This document shows, one piece after another, positions 1,562 through 64,000 of a stretch of DNA of 64,000 nt (position 1 is its first letter; each line of letters starts with the position of its first letter). The DNA comes from Corynebacterium freiburgense. Its GTDB lineage: Bacteria > Actinomycetota > Actinomycetes > Mycobacteriales > Mycobacteriaceae. A model generated the notes under the pieces. The model saw only the letters and a program-made list of their open reading frames with translations. It ran no database searches and was not told the DNA's origin. The stretch covers positions 992,001-1,056,000 of the forward strand of contig NZ_CP047355.1 of NCBI RefSeq assembly GCF_030408815.1, given 5' to 3'. A program made the translations under genes and the position numbers.

Positions 1562-1605
1562 TGTCACAAATTCCATAAAATCCGCTAAAACAAGATTTTG
1601 CGACA
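1562..1605. repeat. Degenerate copy of the 46-bp palindrome (copy A1)
   Basis: The left arm TGTCACAAATTCCAT and the following AAAA match the family, but the right half is decayed, keeping only TTTTGCGACA. Length is 44 bp. It is probably an old copy. Confidence 0.7.
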
Positions 1606-1641
1606 AAAAATAATATAGTGCGCAACCATTCACCAGGCATC

Positions 1642-1698
1642 TGTCACAGATTCCATAAAATCGCCCGAAAATCGCCCGAAAAAATGGAATTTGTGACA
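1642..1698. repeat. Copy of the palindrome family with an 11-bp internal duplication (copy A2)
   Basis: Both 15-bp arms are intact: TGTCACAGATTCCAT and ATGGAATTTGTGACA. The centre contains TCGCCCGAAAA twice in tandem (1661-1671 and 1672-1682), making this copy 57 bp, exactly 46 plus 11. The element tolerates a longer centre while the arms stay paired. Confidence 0.85.
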
Positions 1699-8176: not shown

Positions 8177-8219
8177 ACCTTAAGAGTAGCCCTGGTTGTG
8201 GGCAACGTATAGTAGGTGC

Positions 8220-8302
8220 AGCGCGGGTGTCCAAATTTCTTTTGGGCTGAGACGTATACGACGAACCGTTTGAACCTGAACCGGGTAACGCCGGCGGAGG
8301 AA
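8220..8302 (+). ncRNA. TPP riboswitch (THI element)
   Basis: The leader contains the conserved pieces in order: GGGTGTC near 8225, GGGCTGAGA at 8244-8252, then GAACCGTTTGAACCTGAACC and GGGTAACGCCGGCGGAGGAA at 8283-8302. These match the TPP aptamer core (CTGAGA, ACCTGA, GGGTAAnGCCGGCG). It ends on the ribosome site of the next gene, so control is probably translational; I see no separate terminator hairpin. TPP binding should shut off the YkoEDC operon. Confidence 0.93.
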
Positions 8303-8304
8303 GG

Positions 8305-8898
8305 ATGCAGGTAATGGCTACGCATTGGCGTGTTGTAGATATTGTTGTTGCTGCTGTTTTAGGGGTGGCTTGCGGCTTAATTTTTTGGGTTTGGAATTCC
8401 ATTGGCTATGCCTGGTATACCGCAGCAGATGCTTTTACCCCCGGTTTGGGGGGTGTTGCAAATGGGGTGTGGCTTCTTGGCGGCGTTTTAGGCGGATTGA
8501 TTATCCGTAAACCTGGTGCCGCAATCTTTGTGGAAGTTGTGGCGGCAACAGTTTCAGCACTCATTGGCAATCAATGGGGAATTGAAACGTTGTATTCGGG
8601 TATTGCCCAAGGGCTTGGGGCGGAATTGGTGTTTTTTGTATTCGGTTACCGGCGATTCGGCATCGTTGTGGCGGCACTGGCAGGTGTGGGAGCGGCTCTG
8701 GGGGGTTGGTGCCTTGAACTTGTTACAAGCGCGAATTATGCCAAGGGGGCTATTTTTAATGCTATTTATTTAGCGTCTTCATCGTTGTCTGGGGTATTCC
8801 TTGCTGGCATTTTGGCGTTTATTCTTGTGAGGGCATTAGCCGCCACAGGAGCATTGGATCGTTTTGCAGCAGGCCGAGAAAGGCAGCATTTAGTGTAA
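8305..8898 (+). CDS. ykoE: YkoE-family substrate-binding membrane subunit of an ECF transporter (thiamine precursor)
   Basis: 197 residues with about five or six hydrophobic helices. Sequences such as DAFTPGLGGVANGVWLLGG and EVVAATVSALIGNQWG are typical of YkoE. This S component recognises hydroxymethylpyrimidine or thiamine. The TPP riboswitch directly upstream supports the substrate. ATG 8305 follows GGAGGAAGG closely; ATG 8314 has better spacing (8 bases from AAGGA) and may be the true start. It overlaps the next gene as TAATG. Confidence 0.9.
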   Translation: MQVMATHWRVVDIVVAAVLGVACGLIFWVWNSIGYAWYTAADAFTPGLGGVANGVWLLGGVLGGLIIRKPGAAIFVEVVAATVSALIGNQWGIETLYSGIAQGLGAELVFFVFGYRRFGIVVAALAGVGAALGGWCLELVTSANYAKGAIFNAIYLASSSLSGVFLAGILAFILVRALAATGALDRFAAGRERQHLV

Positions 8899-31140: not shown

Positions 31141-32118
31141 TTAGTTAGCGTGGAGGTCGGCGTTGAGTTCTACGGCCTCAGATTTCCAGGCGGTCGCTTC
31201 GATTGCGCCGGTAATTGAGTTGCGGCGGAACAAAACATTATTGGCGCCAGAAAGCTCAATTGCTTTTACGGCGTAGCCATTGTTTTTGCCCAGGGCCGAG
31301 GCTACTTCGCCAAAGACGGTTACTTTTGAACCGGCAGTTACATACAAGCCAGCTTCGATTACACAGTCATTGCCAAGCGAGATTCCCAAGCCTGAATTGG
31401 CACCAAGAAGACACCGTTTTCCAACGGAGATTACTTCTTTCCCGCCACCAGAAAGGGTTCCCATAATGGATGCGCCGCCGCCGATATCAGTGCCATCGGC
31501 AATTACAACACCCCCGGAAATACGTCCCTCTACCATTGAGGAGCCCAGAGTGCCGGCATTAAAGTTTACAAATCCCTCGTGCATTACAGTGGTGCCTTCA
31601 GCGAGGTGAGCGCCAAGGCGGACCCGGTCGGCGTCGCCAATGCGCACACCAGCGGGGGTGACGTAGTCGACCATGCGGGGGAATTTATCGATGGAGTACA
31701 CAGTGACGGGGCCACGAGTTTGTAGCGCAGCCCGTGTGCGTTCGAATCCTTGGACGGAGCATGGGCCGTGGTTGGTCCAAACAACGTTGGTCAGTAAGCC
31801 AAACACACCATCGAGATTTGCCCCATGGGGCTGAATAAGGCGGTGGGAAAGGAGATGAAGCCGCAGGTAAGCATCGTGCGCATCGATCGGGGCGTCGCTA
31901 AGCGATGCAATGCTTGTGCGGATAAGCACACGACGTGTTTTGCGGAGTTCATCCTCGCCCTCAAGGGCGCTTAAATAGGCGTATTCGCCGGAATCTTTGA
32001 TGTGTTCGGTGCCTGAGGTGGCGACGTTATCTCCGAGGATAGGTTCGGGGAACCAACAATCGAGAACGTCGCCATTTTCGGCGTATGTTGCAAGGCCAAT
32101 GCCGGTAGCTGAAGTCAT
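31141..32118 (-). CDS. dapD: Tetrahydrodipicolinate N-succinyltransferase DapD
   Basis: 325 residues, actinobacterial DapD type. The N-terminal part ([20 protein letters not shown]) precedes a left-handed beta-helix of hexapeptide repeats ([20 protein letters not shown], then [20 protein letters not shown]). It joins succinyl-CoA to tetrahydrodipicolinate as the first step of the succinylase lysine route. It lies 10 bases after the amino-acid permease gene on the same strand, so the two are likely co-transcribed. A second DapD-like gene lies 2.5 kb away. Confidence 0.93.
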
Positions 32119-32128
32119 GGATAATAAA

Positions 32129-33538
32129 CTACCGCACGTCTTTTTGTGTGTGCACTACTTCGTCGTGAGCATTAGCGTTTCGACGCCGCGGAATCAACGA
32201 AAGTCCGATCAGTACAACGCAAATCACCGTTACGGAAGTAATCTGGCTACGCGAGCCTTCGTCAGAAAGCATAAGAATAATAAGCCCCACTAAGCTGGCT
32301 ACCGTTAACCATGGCAACCACGGCCAACCCCACATGCGCACTGGAACATCTTTTTCTTGAGCCAATTCAGGCCGCAATTTAATGTAACTCAGACCAATGG
32401 CAATCCACATAACCACCAAACAGCCACCAACAGCATTGAGAAGGAAATCTAACAGCCCCTCTGGATTCCAATACTGCAAACCAACTGATGCAAATGCGAA
32501 CACCATAGAAAGCAATACCGCATTAATTGGGACGCCGTTTTTATTCGTAGTGCCAAACATAGCCGGGGCGTCGCCACGCTGAGCTAGGGAATAGCACAAG
32601 CGTGAAGTGGCGTAAATCTGTGCGTTAAATGCGGATAATAACGCCAATACAATAACCGCCTCCATAATCCCGACAATGCCCGGAATATTCGCCTTTCCTA
32701 GAATAATTGTAAATGGTGATTCCGCAGCGGACTTTGCGCCATCAATCTGCGAATATGGCAAAAGGAAAGTAATAATCAACACAGCGCCAAGATAAAACAC
32801 CGAAATGCGCCAAATTACGGAGCGAACAGCGGTGGCAATAGCGGTTTTAGGATTATCAGATTCCGCAGCGGCAATTGTAACGATCTCAATACCGCCGAAT
32901 GCGAATGCAACGGCCAAAAGACCCGCTGCCCATCCGGAAATACCATTCGGCATAAAACCTGCTTCACCCAAGAAATTCGTGGTGCCAACATACTCAGAGC
33001 CTGGTAGTAGACCGAAAATTAGCAGCGTGCCAATCACTAGGAAAATAATAATTACAGCAACTTTGATAAAAGCGAACCAGAACTCGAATTCACCGAAACC
33101 GCCAACTTGGGCAAGATTTACAGCGGCAAAAAACGCAACACAAATTAATGCAGGAATCCATGGCTCTACCCCAAACCATTTACCCATTAGTGCTGCCGCG
33201 CCGGTCATTTCAGCACCAAGCACCATGGTCAACATAAACCAGTAGAGCCAGCCCAAGGAGAAGCCAGCCCAACGCCCAAATGCCATTTCTGCATAGGTTG
33301 AAAACGAACCAGAAGCAGGGCGCGCTGCTGCCATTTCACCAAGCATTTGCATAATGCACACAATCACCGCGCCGGCGAGCATATAAGCCAAAAGGACAGA
33401 AGGGCCAGCAGCTCGAATACCAACGCCAGTGCCTAAGAAGAGGCCAGCGCCAATAGCTGAGCCGAGCCCCATCATCGTGAGGTGGCGTGTTTTTAGGCCA
33501 GACCCCAACTTTGTGTCTGGAGTATCCACGTTTGTCAT
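32129..33538 (-). CDS. Amino-acid permease, APC superfamily (AAT family)
   Basis: 469 residues with about 12 helices. The N-terminal [20 protein letters not shown] and the segment [20 protein letters not shown] are signatures of the AAT group (AroP, GabP, ProY). In C. glutamicum a permease annotated as AroP lies beside dapD in the same arrangement. The substrate here cannot be read; aromatic or related amino acids are likely. The gene is transcribed toward dapD. Upstream lies a long repeat-rich gap. Confidence 0.88.
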
Positions 33539-33733
33539 GGGGAATACCCTATATTGAAATCACTGAAATAGAGCTACGGAGGCCCAAGAAACTCTTCATT
33601 TGCCCCCGAGAGTGTTGATTTTTAAGGTTTATCAACCTGGAAAACCATAATCCGGGGGTAATTCTGGGCCCGTTCCCAAAAGTTAGACCGGGTTTTTGTT
33701 CTAGGGTGTTTTGGGGCTATTCGGGGTGATGGT

Positions 33734-33812
33734 GCGGGTGGGCTTGAAGCAGCTAGTTGTTGGCGCGGGTGGGCTTGAAGTAGCTGGTTGTTGGCGCGGG
33801 TGGGCTTGGGTT
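33734..33812. repeat. 31-bp tandem repeat, about 2.5 units
   Basis: Units start at 33734, 33765 and 33796 with GCGGGTGGGCTTGAAG, followed by a variable AGCTRGTTGTTGGC. The third unit is truncated. G-rich on the plus strand. Confidence 0.85.
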
Positions 33813-33849
33813 GAAGCTTGGGAAAGCCTGGGTGAGACATGGAGTCAGT

Positions 33850-33892
33850 CTGGAATAGGCCTGGAATGGGCCTGGAATAAGCCTGGAATAGG
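33850..33892. repeat. 11-bp tandem repeat, four units
   Basis: CTGGAATAGGC and close variants repeat at 33850, 33861, 33872 and 33883. The last unit is incomplete. It follows the 31-bp repeat after a 37-base gap. Confidence 0.85.
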
Positions 33893-34137
33893 AAGATTTG
33901 ACGTATGTTGTGGGCGACGGAAGGCAGATTTGTGTTGTGGGCTTTTGGTTTGGGGGTGTGAGCTGGGGGAATGCGGTGGTGGGTTGTGGGTGATGTGAAA
34001 TCTGCCTGATTTTCGGGGCGGGTTGGCTGCTTTTCCCGAGTTTTTGGAGTGGGGCGGCTGATTTCCAGGGTCTTCGAGTTGGTTTCCAGGGGTTTAATAG
34101 GCGCACCCTATCAAACTAGTGATGTTTCTATCCCTAC

Positions 34138-34183
34138 TGTCGCAGATTCCATAAAACAGCTTGAAAAAATGGAATTTGTGACA
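34138..34183. repeat. 46-bp palindrome, copy B1
   Basis: Arms TGTCGCAGATTCCAT and ATGGAATTTGTGACA, centre AAAACAGCTTGAAAAA. Arms pair over 15 bases with two G-T or T-G type mismatches. Confidence 0.92.
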
Positions 34184-34219
34184 GCAACCAACATTGCGCA
34201 CAATCGTTGACCTTGGGTT

Positions 34220-34265
34220 TGTCGCAGATTCCATAAAAACAGCGAAAAAAATGGAATTCGTGACA
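34220..34265. repeat. 46-bp palindrome, copy B2
   Basis: Arms TGTCGCAGATTCCAT and ATGGAATTCGTGACA, centre AAAAACAGCGAAAAAA. Begins 36 bases after B1. Confidence 0.92.
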
Positions 34266-34281
34266 GGTTCCCTACCTATCG

Positions 34282-34327
34282 TGTCGCAGATTCCATAAAA
34301 TCGGCCGAAAAAATGGAATCTGTGACA
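34282..34327. repeat. 46-bp palindrome, copy B3
   Basis: Arms TGTCGCAGATTCCAT and ATGGAATCTGTGACA, centre AAAATCGGCCGAAAAA, which is itself palindromic at TCGGCCGA. Begins 16 bases after B2. Confidence 0.92.
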
Positions 34328-34670
34328 ACACGCCCAACCAGCACCCAAAAAGACCAACCAGCGCCAGAAAAGACCGGCCGGTGGCCAAAAAGACTGAGCA
34401 CACAACCAAACCACCGGCTATAAAGCTGGGCCAAACCCCGCTACAAAACCAAGCCACAAACCCCACAGCCGCAGCCCAAACCCAGCCCTTCGACATGCCA
34501 ACCTACCGGAATCCCCGGCACCAAAACCACAAGGGTCTCAATAGACACTCTGGCTTTAATGGATCCTCAAGGCCGGCCTCAAAGACCACACCAGTCAGAG
34601 AATCTAACAAGTAGTGAGCAGTTCATCCGGCGTGGCGAGCTCTCCATGATTTGTGTATTACTTCTTTTGG

Positions 34671-35606
34671 TCAGGGACGTCGGGCAACGATTTCATGGCG
34701 GTATGGTTCGAGTCCTAGACGCCAATTGTTTTGGCCTGCGATTTGTGCTGCAGGGGCCAGTTCATCTCGTTGTGCGAAATACAGCAGCGTTGTGGGTTCA
34801 ACAATGACATTATTTCCGATTTGGCAGCCATCGCCGAGCGAAATACCAATAACGCCCGAGCTGACGCCAAACCGACAGTTTTCGCCAACAATAAGAGGTG
34901 TGCGGCCGCCATCCGGAGTGCGCTCGCACATGATTGTGGCTGATAATCCGATTTTTGTACCTTCGCCAATAACTACGCCAGAAGATAACCGGCCCTCTAC
35001 TTTCGCAGGACCGAGGGTGCCGGAATTATAGGAAACAAAACCTTCTCGCATTACGGAAGTTCCAGGGGAGAGGTATGCGCCTAGGCGTACCCGTTCAGCT
35101 TCCGCAATATGGACTCCAGTAGGTACTACATAGTCGACCATTCGGGGAAGCCGATCAATTCCATAGACATGGATCAGGCCGCGTGATCGTAGAGAAGTGC
35201 GGACAAACTCAAAATTATCTGGCAAGCATGGGCCTTTATTAGTCCATACGACGGTGGCGAGCCGGTCCATAATGCCCTCAACATTGATCTCGTGCGGGCG
35301 AACTAGTCGGTGCGATAGCAGATGCAGCCGTAGGTAGGCATCGTGGGCGTCGATAGCTGGTTTAGCCAAGGAAGCGATAGATGTCTTTACGGCTACCTGT
35401 TCGACCATGCGATCTTCGTCTAACTTGACCAAGGAGAGCATCTTTGGGGATAAATCCTGGGCCCCAAGACGAACTGTGCCGGTCTGGTTGATCCCAGATG
35501 ACAGCTCTGGGTGGGGGAACCAAGTATCGAGAACTGTGCCATCCATGGCAATATTCGCAATACCTACAGCGTGTGCGCCCATACCTTGCAAACCCTGAAT
35601 CGTCAT
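34671..35606 (-). CDS. dapD2: Second DapD-like succinyltransferase
   Basis: 311 residues, homologous along its length to the dapD product encoded at 31141. Shared pieces include [51 protein letters not shown] and hexapeptide repeats. It lacks the long C-terminal extension of DapD. C. glutamicum also has a dapD2 next to dapE. It may be a diverged paralogue with another acceptor, because one DapD suffices for lysine. It diverges from dapE. Confidence 0.87.
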   Translation of the reverse strand: MTIQGLQGMGAHAVGIANIAMDGTVLDTWFPHPELSSGINQTGTVRLGAQDLSPKMLSLVKLDEDRMVEQVAVKTSIASLAKPAIDAHDAYLRLHLLSHRLVRPHEINVEGIMDRLATVVWTNKGPCLPDNFEFVRTSLRSRGLIHVYGIDRLPRMVDYVVPTGVHIAEAERVRLGAYLSPGTSVMREGFVSYNSGTLGPAKVEGRLSSGVVIGEGTKIGLSATIMCERTPDGGRTPLIVGENCRFGVSSGVIGISLGDGCQIGNNVIVEPTTLLYFAQRDELAPAAQIAGQNNWRLGLEPYRHEIVARRP

Positions 35607-53016: not shown

Positions 53017-53640
53017 ATGCAAAATCGAATCATGATCACGCGCGCAGATGAGTCCCCATCCGACGATATTGAGGCATCATTGTCTGGAACTGCAGCTTTT
53101 GATGCTGGTCAAGGGGAGATGCCTTCCTGGGCTGAGTTGGTCCAGGAACATGCGGATAGTGTGTATCGCTTAGCGTTCCGGTTGACTGGTAACCAACATG
53201 ATGCGGAAGACCTTACCCAAGAAACCTTTATGCGGGTATTCCGTTCGCTCAAAAACTATAAACCTGGAACTTTTGAGGGTTGGCTGCACCGTATTACTAC
53301 GAACCTCTTCTTAGATATGGTTCGGCATCGCAATAAGATCCATATGGAAGCTTTGCCTGAGGATTATGATCGCGTTCCAGGCAATGATATGACTCCTGAA
53401 CAGGCATATCACTTTGCCAATTTAGATCCTGCTTTGCAACGTGCACTGGATGAATTGAGTCCAGACTTCCGTGTTGCAGTGGTGTTGTGTGATGTTGTGG
53501 GCATGACCTATGACGAAATCGCAGATACCCTTGGTGTGAAAATGGGTACAGTCCGTAGTCGTATTCACCGAGGTAGAAGCCAGTTACGTGCAAGTTTAGA
53601 AGCGAATCCGGACGCCGAACAATTTGTCGCGGCGCAATAA
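53017..53640 (+). CDS. sigE: ECF sigma factor SigE
   Basis: About 207 residues. Region 2 carries [20 protein letters not shown] and region 4 the helix-turn-helix [20 protein letters not shown]. It directs RNA polymerase to envelope-stress genes. ATG 53017 ([13 protein letters not shown]) or ATG 53032 are the likely starts; the frame from 52927 reads through the promoter area. The anti-sigma gene lies 42 bases downstream, as in C. glutamicum (sigE-cseE) and M. tuberculosis (sigE-rseA). Confidence 0.93.
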
Positions 53641-63424: not shown

Positions 63425-63676
63425 TCGCACAATGCAGCCCCTTTAAAAGGCGCAACACCACCGATGTGTGGTAGGGGTGGACTGCTCCCCATTTATTGGA
63501 CTGTACTGTGCAAGGTTTTAGCCTGGTGTTGTGGGATTTGTGGCTGGTGGTTGGGTTGTGTGCGTCCGGTTACCTGGGATTTGGTTGGGGTGCATATGGG
63601 TTGGGTGGAGGTGCTTAATCTTTTCGGGCTGCTGGCCAGGAGGTGCTCAGTCTTTTTGGGTGCTGGTTGGGCGTGT

Positions 63677-63722
63677 TGTCACAGATTCCATTTTTTCGGC
63701 CGATTTTATGGAATCTGCGACA
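63677..63722. repeat. 46-bp palindrome, copy C3
   Basis: Matches B3 in inverse orientation. Arms TGTCACAGATTCCAT and ATGGAATCTGCGACA, with TCGGCCGA in the centre. Confidence 0.92.
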
Positions 63723-63738
63723 CGATAGGTAGGGAACC

Positions 63739-63784
63739 TGTCACGAATTCCATTTTTTTCGCTGTTTTTATGGAATCTGCGACA
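63739..63784. repeat. 46-bp palindrome, copy C2
   Basis: Matches B2 inverted. Arms TGTCACGAATTCCAT and ATGGAATCTGCGACA, centre TTTTTTTCGCTGTTTT. Confidence 0.92.
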
Positions 63785-63820
63785 CACCCCAGGTCAACGC
63801 TTGTGCGCAATGTTGGCTGC

Positions 63821-63866
63821 TGTCACAAATTCCATTTTTTCAGCCGATTTTATGGAATCTGCGACA
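63821..63866. repeat. 46-bp palindrome, copy C1
   Basis: Matches B1 inverted. Arms TGTCACAAATTCCAT and ATGGAATCTGCGACA; the centre TTTTTTCAGCCGATTTT differs from B1 in its middle bases while the arms still pair. Confidence 0.92.
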
Positions 63867-64000
63867 GTAGAGATAAAAACATCACTAATTTGATAGGGTG
63901 CGCCTATCAAACCGCAGGGAAAGCAGCTCCAACCCCAGGAAACCCAGCCAGGCTGCATGGAAATCGGCGTCAACCACCCAGATCAGTCACTTCCAACCAG

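Follow-up and report, generated by a model that had tools for sequence, protein, structure and literature searches.

The window, i.e., the whole 64,000-nucleotide stretch of Corynebacterium freiburgense DNA that was analysed, contains two ORFs resembling dapD paralogues (31141-32118 and 34671-35606, both on the minus strand), which flank a gene for an aroP-like permease (32129-33538); these names are given from sequence, and many genomes of the genus have two matches to the dapD-like ORF at 34671-35606. The sole Rfam match in the window, a TPP riboswitch, lies at 8213-8320 on the plus strand (59.1 bits versus a gathering score of 54.3). The gap between the aroP-like gene and the second dapD-like ORF carries three 46-bp palindromes, and three more lie in inverted order near the end of the window. 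The features are listed below; copy numbers and consensus sequences refer to the family described thereafter.

33665..34625, no strand assigned: element 1, non-coding and transposon-like, 961 bp, in the aroP-dapD gap; end scores 23.5 and 28.4
33665..33690, plus: left end of element 1, TGGGCCCGTTCCCAAAAGTTAGACCG (left-end family consensus TGAACTTGCCCCCGAAAGTTaGAcTG)
33691..34092, plus: left flank of element 1, G/T-rich, with oriented GCTGGTT-type words (from family averages and the window sequence)
34093..34115, plus: small inverted repeat TTTAATAGGCGCACCCTATCAAA of element 1, a box conserved among copies
34138..34183, plus: palindrome 1 of element 1, two 15-bp half-sites with a 16-bp centre
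34184..34219, plus: spacer sA of element 1, 36 bp, containing TTGCGCACAA
34220..34265, plus: palindrome 2 of element 1, with an A.C mismatch at position 7, 3′ arm
34266..34281, plus: 16-bp spacer GGTTCCCTACCTATCG of element 1, within the 22-bp family anchor, which is exact in 56/70 copies
34282..34327, plus: palindrome 3 of element 1
34328..34599, plus: right flank of element 1, C/A-rich (from family averages and the window sequence)
34600..34625, minus: right end of element 1, TGAACTGCTCACTACTTGTTAGATTC on the minus strand (right-end family consensus TGAACTGCTCCCCGTTTGTTGGACTc)
63478..64000, continuing beyond the window end, minus: element 2, inverted; right end scored 33.1, far end not recognised
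63677..63722, minus: palindrome 3 of element 2
63739..63784, minus: palindrome 2 of element 2
63821..63866, minus: palindrome 1 of element 2
63889..63911, minus: small inverted repeat of element 2, TTTGATAGGGTGCGCCTATCAAA as read on the plus strand
1562..1698, plus: older array resembling those of the MAG described below, with a decayed palindrome (1562-1605), a spacer and a 57-bp palindrome (1642-1698); outside the 70 triplets

An earlier note on this DNA had described six 46-bp palindromes with fixed arms and a variable centre, together with two divergent copies. All six are present, and far above chance: with at most three mismatches allowed, the window contains 20 arm matches versus 7.0 (sd 2.78) in shuffled sequence, and none of 100 shuffles reached 20. 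The arms are indeed fixed in most of them, but at 34220 and 63739 one arm each reads TGTCACGAATTCCAT, which on the element plus strand places an A opposite a C at arm position 7, where no G-U pair can form. Both divergent copies could be found as well, although the one at 1642 is 57 bp long, with a 27-base centre, and in the one at 1562 the 5′ arm alone is intact. What did not hold is the view of the palindromes as free-standing units: they form two mutually inverted triplets, in each of which 36 and 16 bp separate the palindromes, and both triplets lie inside larger elements, at 33665-34625 and from 63478 onwards.

A scan of the 2.96-Mb C. freiburgense genome for the arm pair, as the note had proposed, revealed a large repeat family with 177 exact hairpins; a reversed control pattern yielded none, and the exact hairpin pattern was absent from the other 60 genomes of the same scan. 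Seventy triplets, 31 on the plus and 39 on the minus strand, were located by a 22-bp anchor composed of the 16-bp spacer and six arm bases, which 56 of them match exactly, 12 with one mismatch and 2 with two; since only 2/70 anchors reach two mismatches, the cut-off of three leaves the family untruncated. BLAST searches with the 251-bp core in 242 genomes of the genus gave matches only in C. freiburgense and in G219, and a scan of genome contigs returned 36 stretches, all from the MAG Corynebacterium sp. S17M_Sa_7, which, judging by the matching places, we take to be the same genome as G219. Complete arrays in the MAG are diverged, symmetric and made of four hairpins, in the order HP1, 36-bp spacer, HP2, 15-bp near-palindromic centre, HP3, reversed spacer and HP4; the C. 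freiburgense triplet, preceded by its small inverted repeat, is the counterpart of HP1-spacer-HP2-16 bp-HP3. The MAG arrays (L083-L118) have different common flanks, including a palindrome around GGCGTCGAGAAGCTTTGCGACGCCGC, so that the context of the core differs between the two species. In C. freiburgense, the left flanks contain 70 occurrences of ATCTGCCT and 31 of its reverse complement, a further inverted repeat within the element.

The note knew of no described repeat with such a sequence, and nothing similar was found in Rfam or in searches of a library of open-access papers. That the family might be a known kind of element turned out to be partly true, in that its vehicle has ends of the IS3 family. 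A phage, plasmid or viral origin was rejected, because plasmid and phage collections gave no blastn match to window positions 33900-34700 at E 1e-5 and the exact hairpin pattern was absent from viral contigs. A CRISPR array was rejected as well, the spacers being common to the copies and of fixed length, not unique.

Copies can be aligned over at most about 700 bp, with a median identity of 84%, and the GC skew around the anchor amounts to +0.33 to +0.39 at -400 to -200 and to -0.43 at +100 to +200. GCTGGTT words are oriented, with 78 on the left, 92 on the right and 1 in the opposite sense; the Chi-like recombination hot spot that they brought to mind was set aside, as we know of no Chi sequence for Corynebacterium and, to our knowledge, corynebacteria are without RecBCD. 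Models of the two ends recognised a left end in 34 of the 70 copies, a right end in 29 and neither in 23, and 16 copies are two-ended, with element lengths of 653-1027 bp; the threshold for these counts was the 97th percentile of reversed controls, and the models were refined on the same 70 copies. While 27 left and all 29 right end matches exceed all 70 controls, some accepted left matches fall within the control range, the reversed-control maxima being 16.8 (left) and 8.4 (right).

We compared the insertion sites with those of related genomes and found several of them empty. The aroP-dapD gap measures 1132 bp in C. freiburgense and about 150, 251 and 99 bp in G219, G081 and G224, respectively, and contains no array in any of these three relatives, which identifies element 1 as an insertion. 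The second window site corresponds to a gap of 143 bp in G224 and to one of 466 bp, with no match to the array, in G219, and in G081 it is occupied by about 3 kb of other DNA. The site of a copy at 490 kb is empty in the MAG, and in C. freiburgense (G000) this copy is bounded by an AAAC duplication. Elements of the IS3 family duplicate 3-5 bp of target. Target-site duplications of at least 3 bp accompany 4 of the 16 two-ended copies (shuffle P 0.19 for 3 bp and 0.07 for 4 bp).

Both ends resemble those of intact IS3-family elements in other Corynebacterium species. The right-end word, with two mismatches allowed, occurs in 66 of the 242 genomes of the genus, versus 0 for a control among the matches listed, and in 12 of 30 fetched loci bearing this word a second end lies 1369-1441 bp away; those of the loci that were read contain an OrfA/OrfB pair. 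The IS ends differ from the family consensus ends at 2/26 and 3/26 positions, with the left end matching the IS end at 24 of 26. OrfB from one such locus, L233, is an IS3-family transposase (319.5 bits versus a cut-off of 160), while its OrfA scores below the cut-off of that model; the IS elements with matching ends presumably belong to the IS150-type subgroup. A palindrome of about 60 bp is part of the IS end, and in L232, L235, L253 and L254 it was seen alone, with no second end at the IS distance.

No autonomous parent was found in C. freiburgense, where a search yielded two rve matches, neither of them at a locus with element ends, so the mobiliser has presumably been lost; one rve protein resembles OrfB at 31% and the other has no similarity to it at E 1, and a transposase without an rve match may be present. 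When OrfA and OrfB of L233 were searched by tblastn against L119-L189, L230, L231 and the window, all matches fell outside the elements. One of them is an OrfB-like remnant at L150:2016-2243 (35%, E 8e-8), about 0.8-1.0 kb from the anchor of a copy: it lies 787-1014 bp to the left of the anchor, and the element end in L150 is at -243. A weak OrfA-like match is located at window positions 53440-53625 (E 3e-4). Overall, the palindromes are the core of a non-coding, MITE-like element present in about 70 copies. This view of the vehicle is well supported, and the element is probably extinct; against it count the target-site duplications in just 4/16 two-ended copies and the 23/70 copies without either end.

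Within the element, conservation is concentrated in the arms, each of which separately keeps the 15-bp word TGTCRCARATTCCAT. In the alignment of 70 copies, non-consensus bases make up 2.6, 2.6, 0.7, 4.3, 4.5 and 1.0% of the six arms, 11.5, 8.7 and 6.7% of the three centres, 9.3% of the 36-bp spacer, and 1.2% of the 16-bp spacer, the latter value being partly due to ascertainment since this spacer belongs to the anchor. Just upstream of the triplet they reach 14-15%, and in the flanks 30-32%, a figure to which misalignment of low-complexity DNA may contribute. Three places hold most of the arm variation: positions 5 and 8, which are invariably occupied by a purine, and, in one arm, position 7. 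Changes private to a single copy number 0.07 per column in the arms, 0.23 in the centres, 0.14 in the spacer and 0.35-0.47 in the flanks when one outlier copy is excluded, and 0.24, 0.56, 0.44 and 0.36-0.50, respectively, when it is included. The MAG keeps this word as well, in 246 arms; positions 5 and 8 are R there, and variants have C at position 1 (34 arms) or T at position 9 (17 arms); these arms were collected at no more than three mismatches, so that strongly decayed ones are uncounted. Compared with the core, the flanks show a stronger bias of between-copy changes towards G to T and C to A (G to T versus G to A is 8.5 versus 10.3% in the left flank and 1.0 versus 4.2% in the core), as if a G/T or C/A composition were kept, the alternative being misalignment of low-complexity DNA.

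The centre is 16 bp long in 177 of 204 hairpins in C. freiburgense and in 107 of 123 in the MAG, and its other lengths are 14-18, then 25-29, then 38 bp, with none at 19-24 or 30-37; the steps of about 11 bp may reflect helical phasing, or just slippage between A-tracts 11 bp apart. The centres of the six half-sites give a phase vector of 0.995 at 10.3 bp per turn and of 0.73 at 10.5, eight values having been scanned.

A plain dead MITE family could leave passive debris with much the same appearance, if gene conversion had made the arms look conserved or if copies had to have intact arms in order to move. The vehicle is decayed and parentless, and the spacing of copies along the chromosome is random-like (P 0.11 for the largest gap and 0.17 for evenness), so that a chromosome-scale placement signal was rejected; both facts would fit such debris. 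Conversion, however, should include the 16-bp centres, yet these differ at 6.7-11.5%; moreover, copy-private changes are also rarer in the arms, and both species keep one arm word though their spacers and flanks differ. We regard passive debris as unlikely.

Predicted genes could be identified on either side of 68 copies, every one of which lies in the gap between them: 20 gaps are convergent, 18 and 16 co-directional and 14 divergent. Convergent gaps account for 11 of 78 background gaps in the same stretches (p 0.027 versus 20/68), and for 4 of 45 when only gaps of at least 150 bp are counted (p 0.0098), a comparison that relies on the crude calls of a simple gene caller and on stretches some of which overlap. 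In six MAG stretches, the array shares a neighbouring gene with a C. freiburgense array: both neighbours are common to the two species for copies 12, 14, 20 and 35, and one neighbour for copies 10 and 63, and five of these six copies are convergent in C. freiburgense. This sample is biased, as it includes array-bearing MAG stretches only, and the two window sites and the 490-kb site are array-less in the MAG. We also considered a regulator encoded beside the arrays of both species, but Pfam assigned varied functions to the 10 flanking genes at five common sites, none of them a DNA-binding regulator and one without a match.

The preference for convergent gaps would be expected of a two-way Rho-dependent terminator, in which the outward C-rich, G-poor RNA would load Rho on read-through from both genes, and the hairpins would protect the RNA or cause pausing. 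In the 150 nt leading outward from the core, the C/G ratio is at least 2 in 83% of 70 copies on the right and in 69% on the left, as opposed to 3.7% of 434 other intergenic windows, and a Rho domain is encoded in C. freiburgense. However, the compositional bubble was inherited with one element, so that 70 copies are not 70 tests, and it is weak in the MAG arrays, where the skew beside the core is at most about 0.1. Apart from the crude gene calls, 14/68 copies lie in divergent gaps, and termination leaves unexplained why the arms are the most conserved part. A terminator is decidedly unlikely to be what maintains the palindromes.

It had also been suggested that arm differences of the A/G and C/T type, which keep G-U pairing, point to selection on RNA or cruciform structure; the palindromes would then be kept because one strand folds, as a small RNA, an mRNA-stabilising 3′ end, or a cruciform. 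In C. freiburgense, the differences do favour pairing on one strand, with 249 G.U versus 32 A.C cells in 64 complete triplets, but in the MAG the numbers are 75 and 72. Selection on pairing was not borne out, as there is no excess of compensatory changes and the arms pair no better than shuffled ones: double changes number 0, 0, 0 and 2 in four strand sets, versus 0.3, 7.6, 10.2 and 2.1 after shuffling. For 22 distinct arm pairs from C. freiburgense, pairing is 0.9818 versus 0.9824 with shuffled 3′ arms, a value reached by 388 of 500 shuffles; the 37 distinct pairs from the MAG are worse than 500/500 shuffles, to which the pooling of four hairpin classes contributes, and have 0 double changes where 7.6 are expected. 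On neither strand of either genome are distinct arm pairs better paired than shuffled. Mismatches of the A.C type occur at position 7 of hairpin 2 in 14/64 copies and at position 8 of hairpin 3 in 17/64. The MAG wobbles are mirrored (22 G.U to 6 A.C in hairpin 1, and 7 to 15 in hairpin 4), as expected from inverted duplication. As every copy in C. freiburgense descends from a single element, a founder effect may account for the strand bias of G.U there.

The triplet folds better than shuffled sequence on both strands (z -8.3 and -5.4), which is not diagnostic, because any palindrome would do so; in the minimum-energy fold, the three near-identical hairpins cross-pair, and the 16-base centres are mostly unpaired in C. 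freiburgense. Sigma-70-like promoters number 0 in 33500-34750, versus 0.9 in shuffles, and the palindromes have no Rfam match up to E 1. With neither covariation nor an Rfam match, an RNA element was rejected, and maintenance through folding of either kind has a slim chance. As for a REP/BIME-type repeat moved by RAYT, a Y1 transposase, it would account for many intergenic palindromes in inverted arrangement but is extremely improbable, as PF01797 has no match in either C. freiburgense or the MAG (88% complete), although 5 of 14 control genomes are positive, and the element ends are of the IS3 type.

The combination that we favour, and which we consider fairly likely from sequence, is that each array of palindromes provides paired half-sites of 15 bp (TGTCRCARATTCCAT) for a putative sequence-specific dsDNA-binding protein and is located inside a non-autonomous MITE-like element. 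On the side of observation stand the approximately 70 intergenic non-coding copies, the IS3-type ends, the empty sites, the failure to find a matching transposase, and arms without pairing covariation; whereas the element is seen directly, the binding protein is one that we infer. Such a protein would read the arms as double-stranded DNA rather than as an RNA fold, since the arms are near-constant while the rest of the copies have decayed. An IS3-family transposase may have spread the element in trans by way of its ends and later been lost. Arm conservation would reflect binding by a protein of the host or of the former mobile element, with the six phased half-sites of each copy possibly binding it cooperatively; as a guess at its role, a nucleoid, partition-like or insulating function might have been taken over by the host.

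A stronger version of the half-site reading, possible but doubtful, is that the host has recruited the core from mobile DNA as a functional set of phased protein-binding sites that spans the chromosome and is specific to the lineage; the vehicle would decay while selection holds the half-sites. To the binding-site reading it would add the presence of arrays beside the same genes in two species despite spacer turnover, preferably between convergent genes. If true, the roughly 70 scattered arrays would serve a dedicated binding protein in organising, partitioning or insulating the chromosome. Debate over why bacteria retain palindromic repeats usually opposes selfish spread, RNA structure and protein binding, and here the three can be separated from sequence alone, by a decayed vehicle, no pairing covariation, and near-constant arms in about 70 copies. 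This yields the concrete prediction of one binding protein for a known 15-bp word, and shows that wobble-type differences between its arms do not by themselves mark a palindrome as an RNA signal.

Comparison with known systems places the family closest to MITEs, with which it has in common imperfect terminal inverted repeats resembling those of intact IS3-family elements of the genus, many intergenic copies at sites that are empty in relatives, and no OrfA/OrfB remnant inside the elements examined. Unlike typical MITEs, the C. freiburgense element is longer (653-1027 bp), has no parent found in the genome, and carries a half-site array far better conserved than its ends. A survey of stem-loop families in bacterial genomes includes a table row for Corynebacterium diphtheriae (PMC2267715). 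REP, BIME and REPIN sequences are similar in being intergenic palindromes that are numerous, grouped, inverted and confined to a narrow lineage, but here no Y1/RAYT was found, and the arms are kept as words without covariation. Iteron, centromere and operator arrays are bound cooperatively; they resemble the present arrays in having phased half-sites, direct and inverted, with fixed spacings, and differ in that the approximately 70 copies described here are dispersed and their binding protein is putative. On sequence grounds, the family is thus a MITE-like, IS3-ended and probably dead element, whose palindromic core behaves like a half-site array for a putative dsDNA-binding protein.
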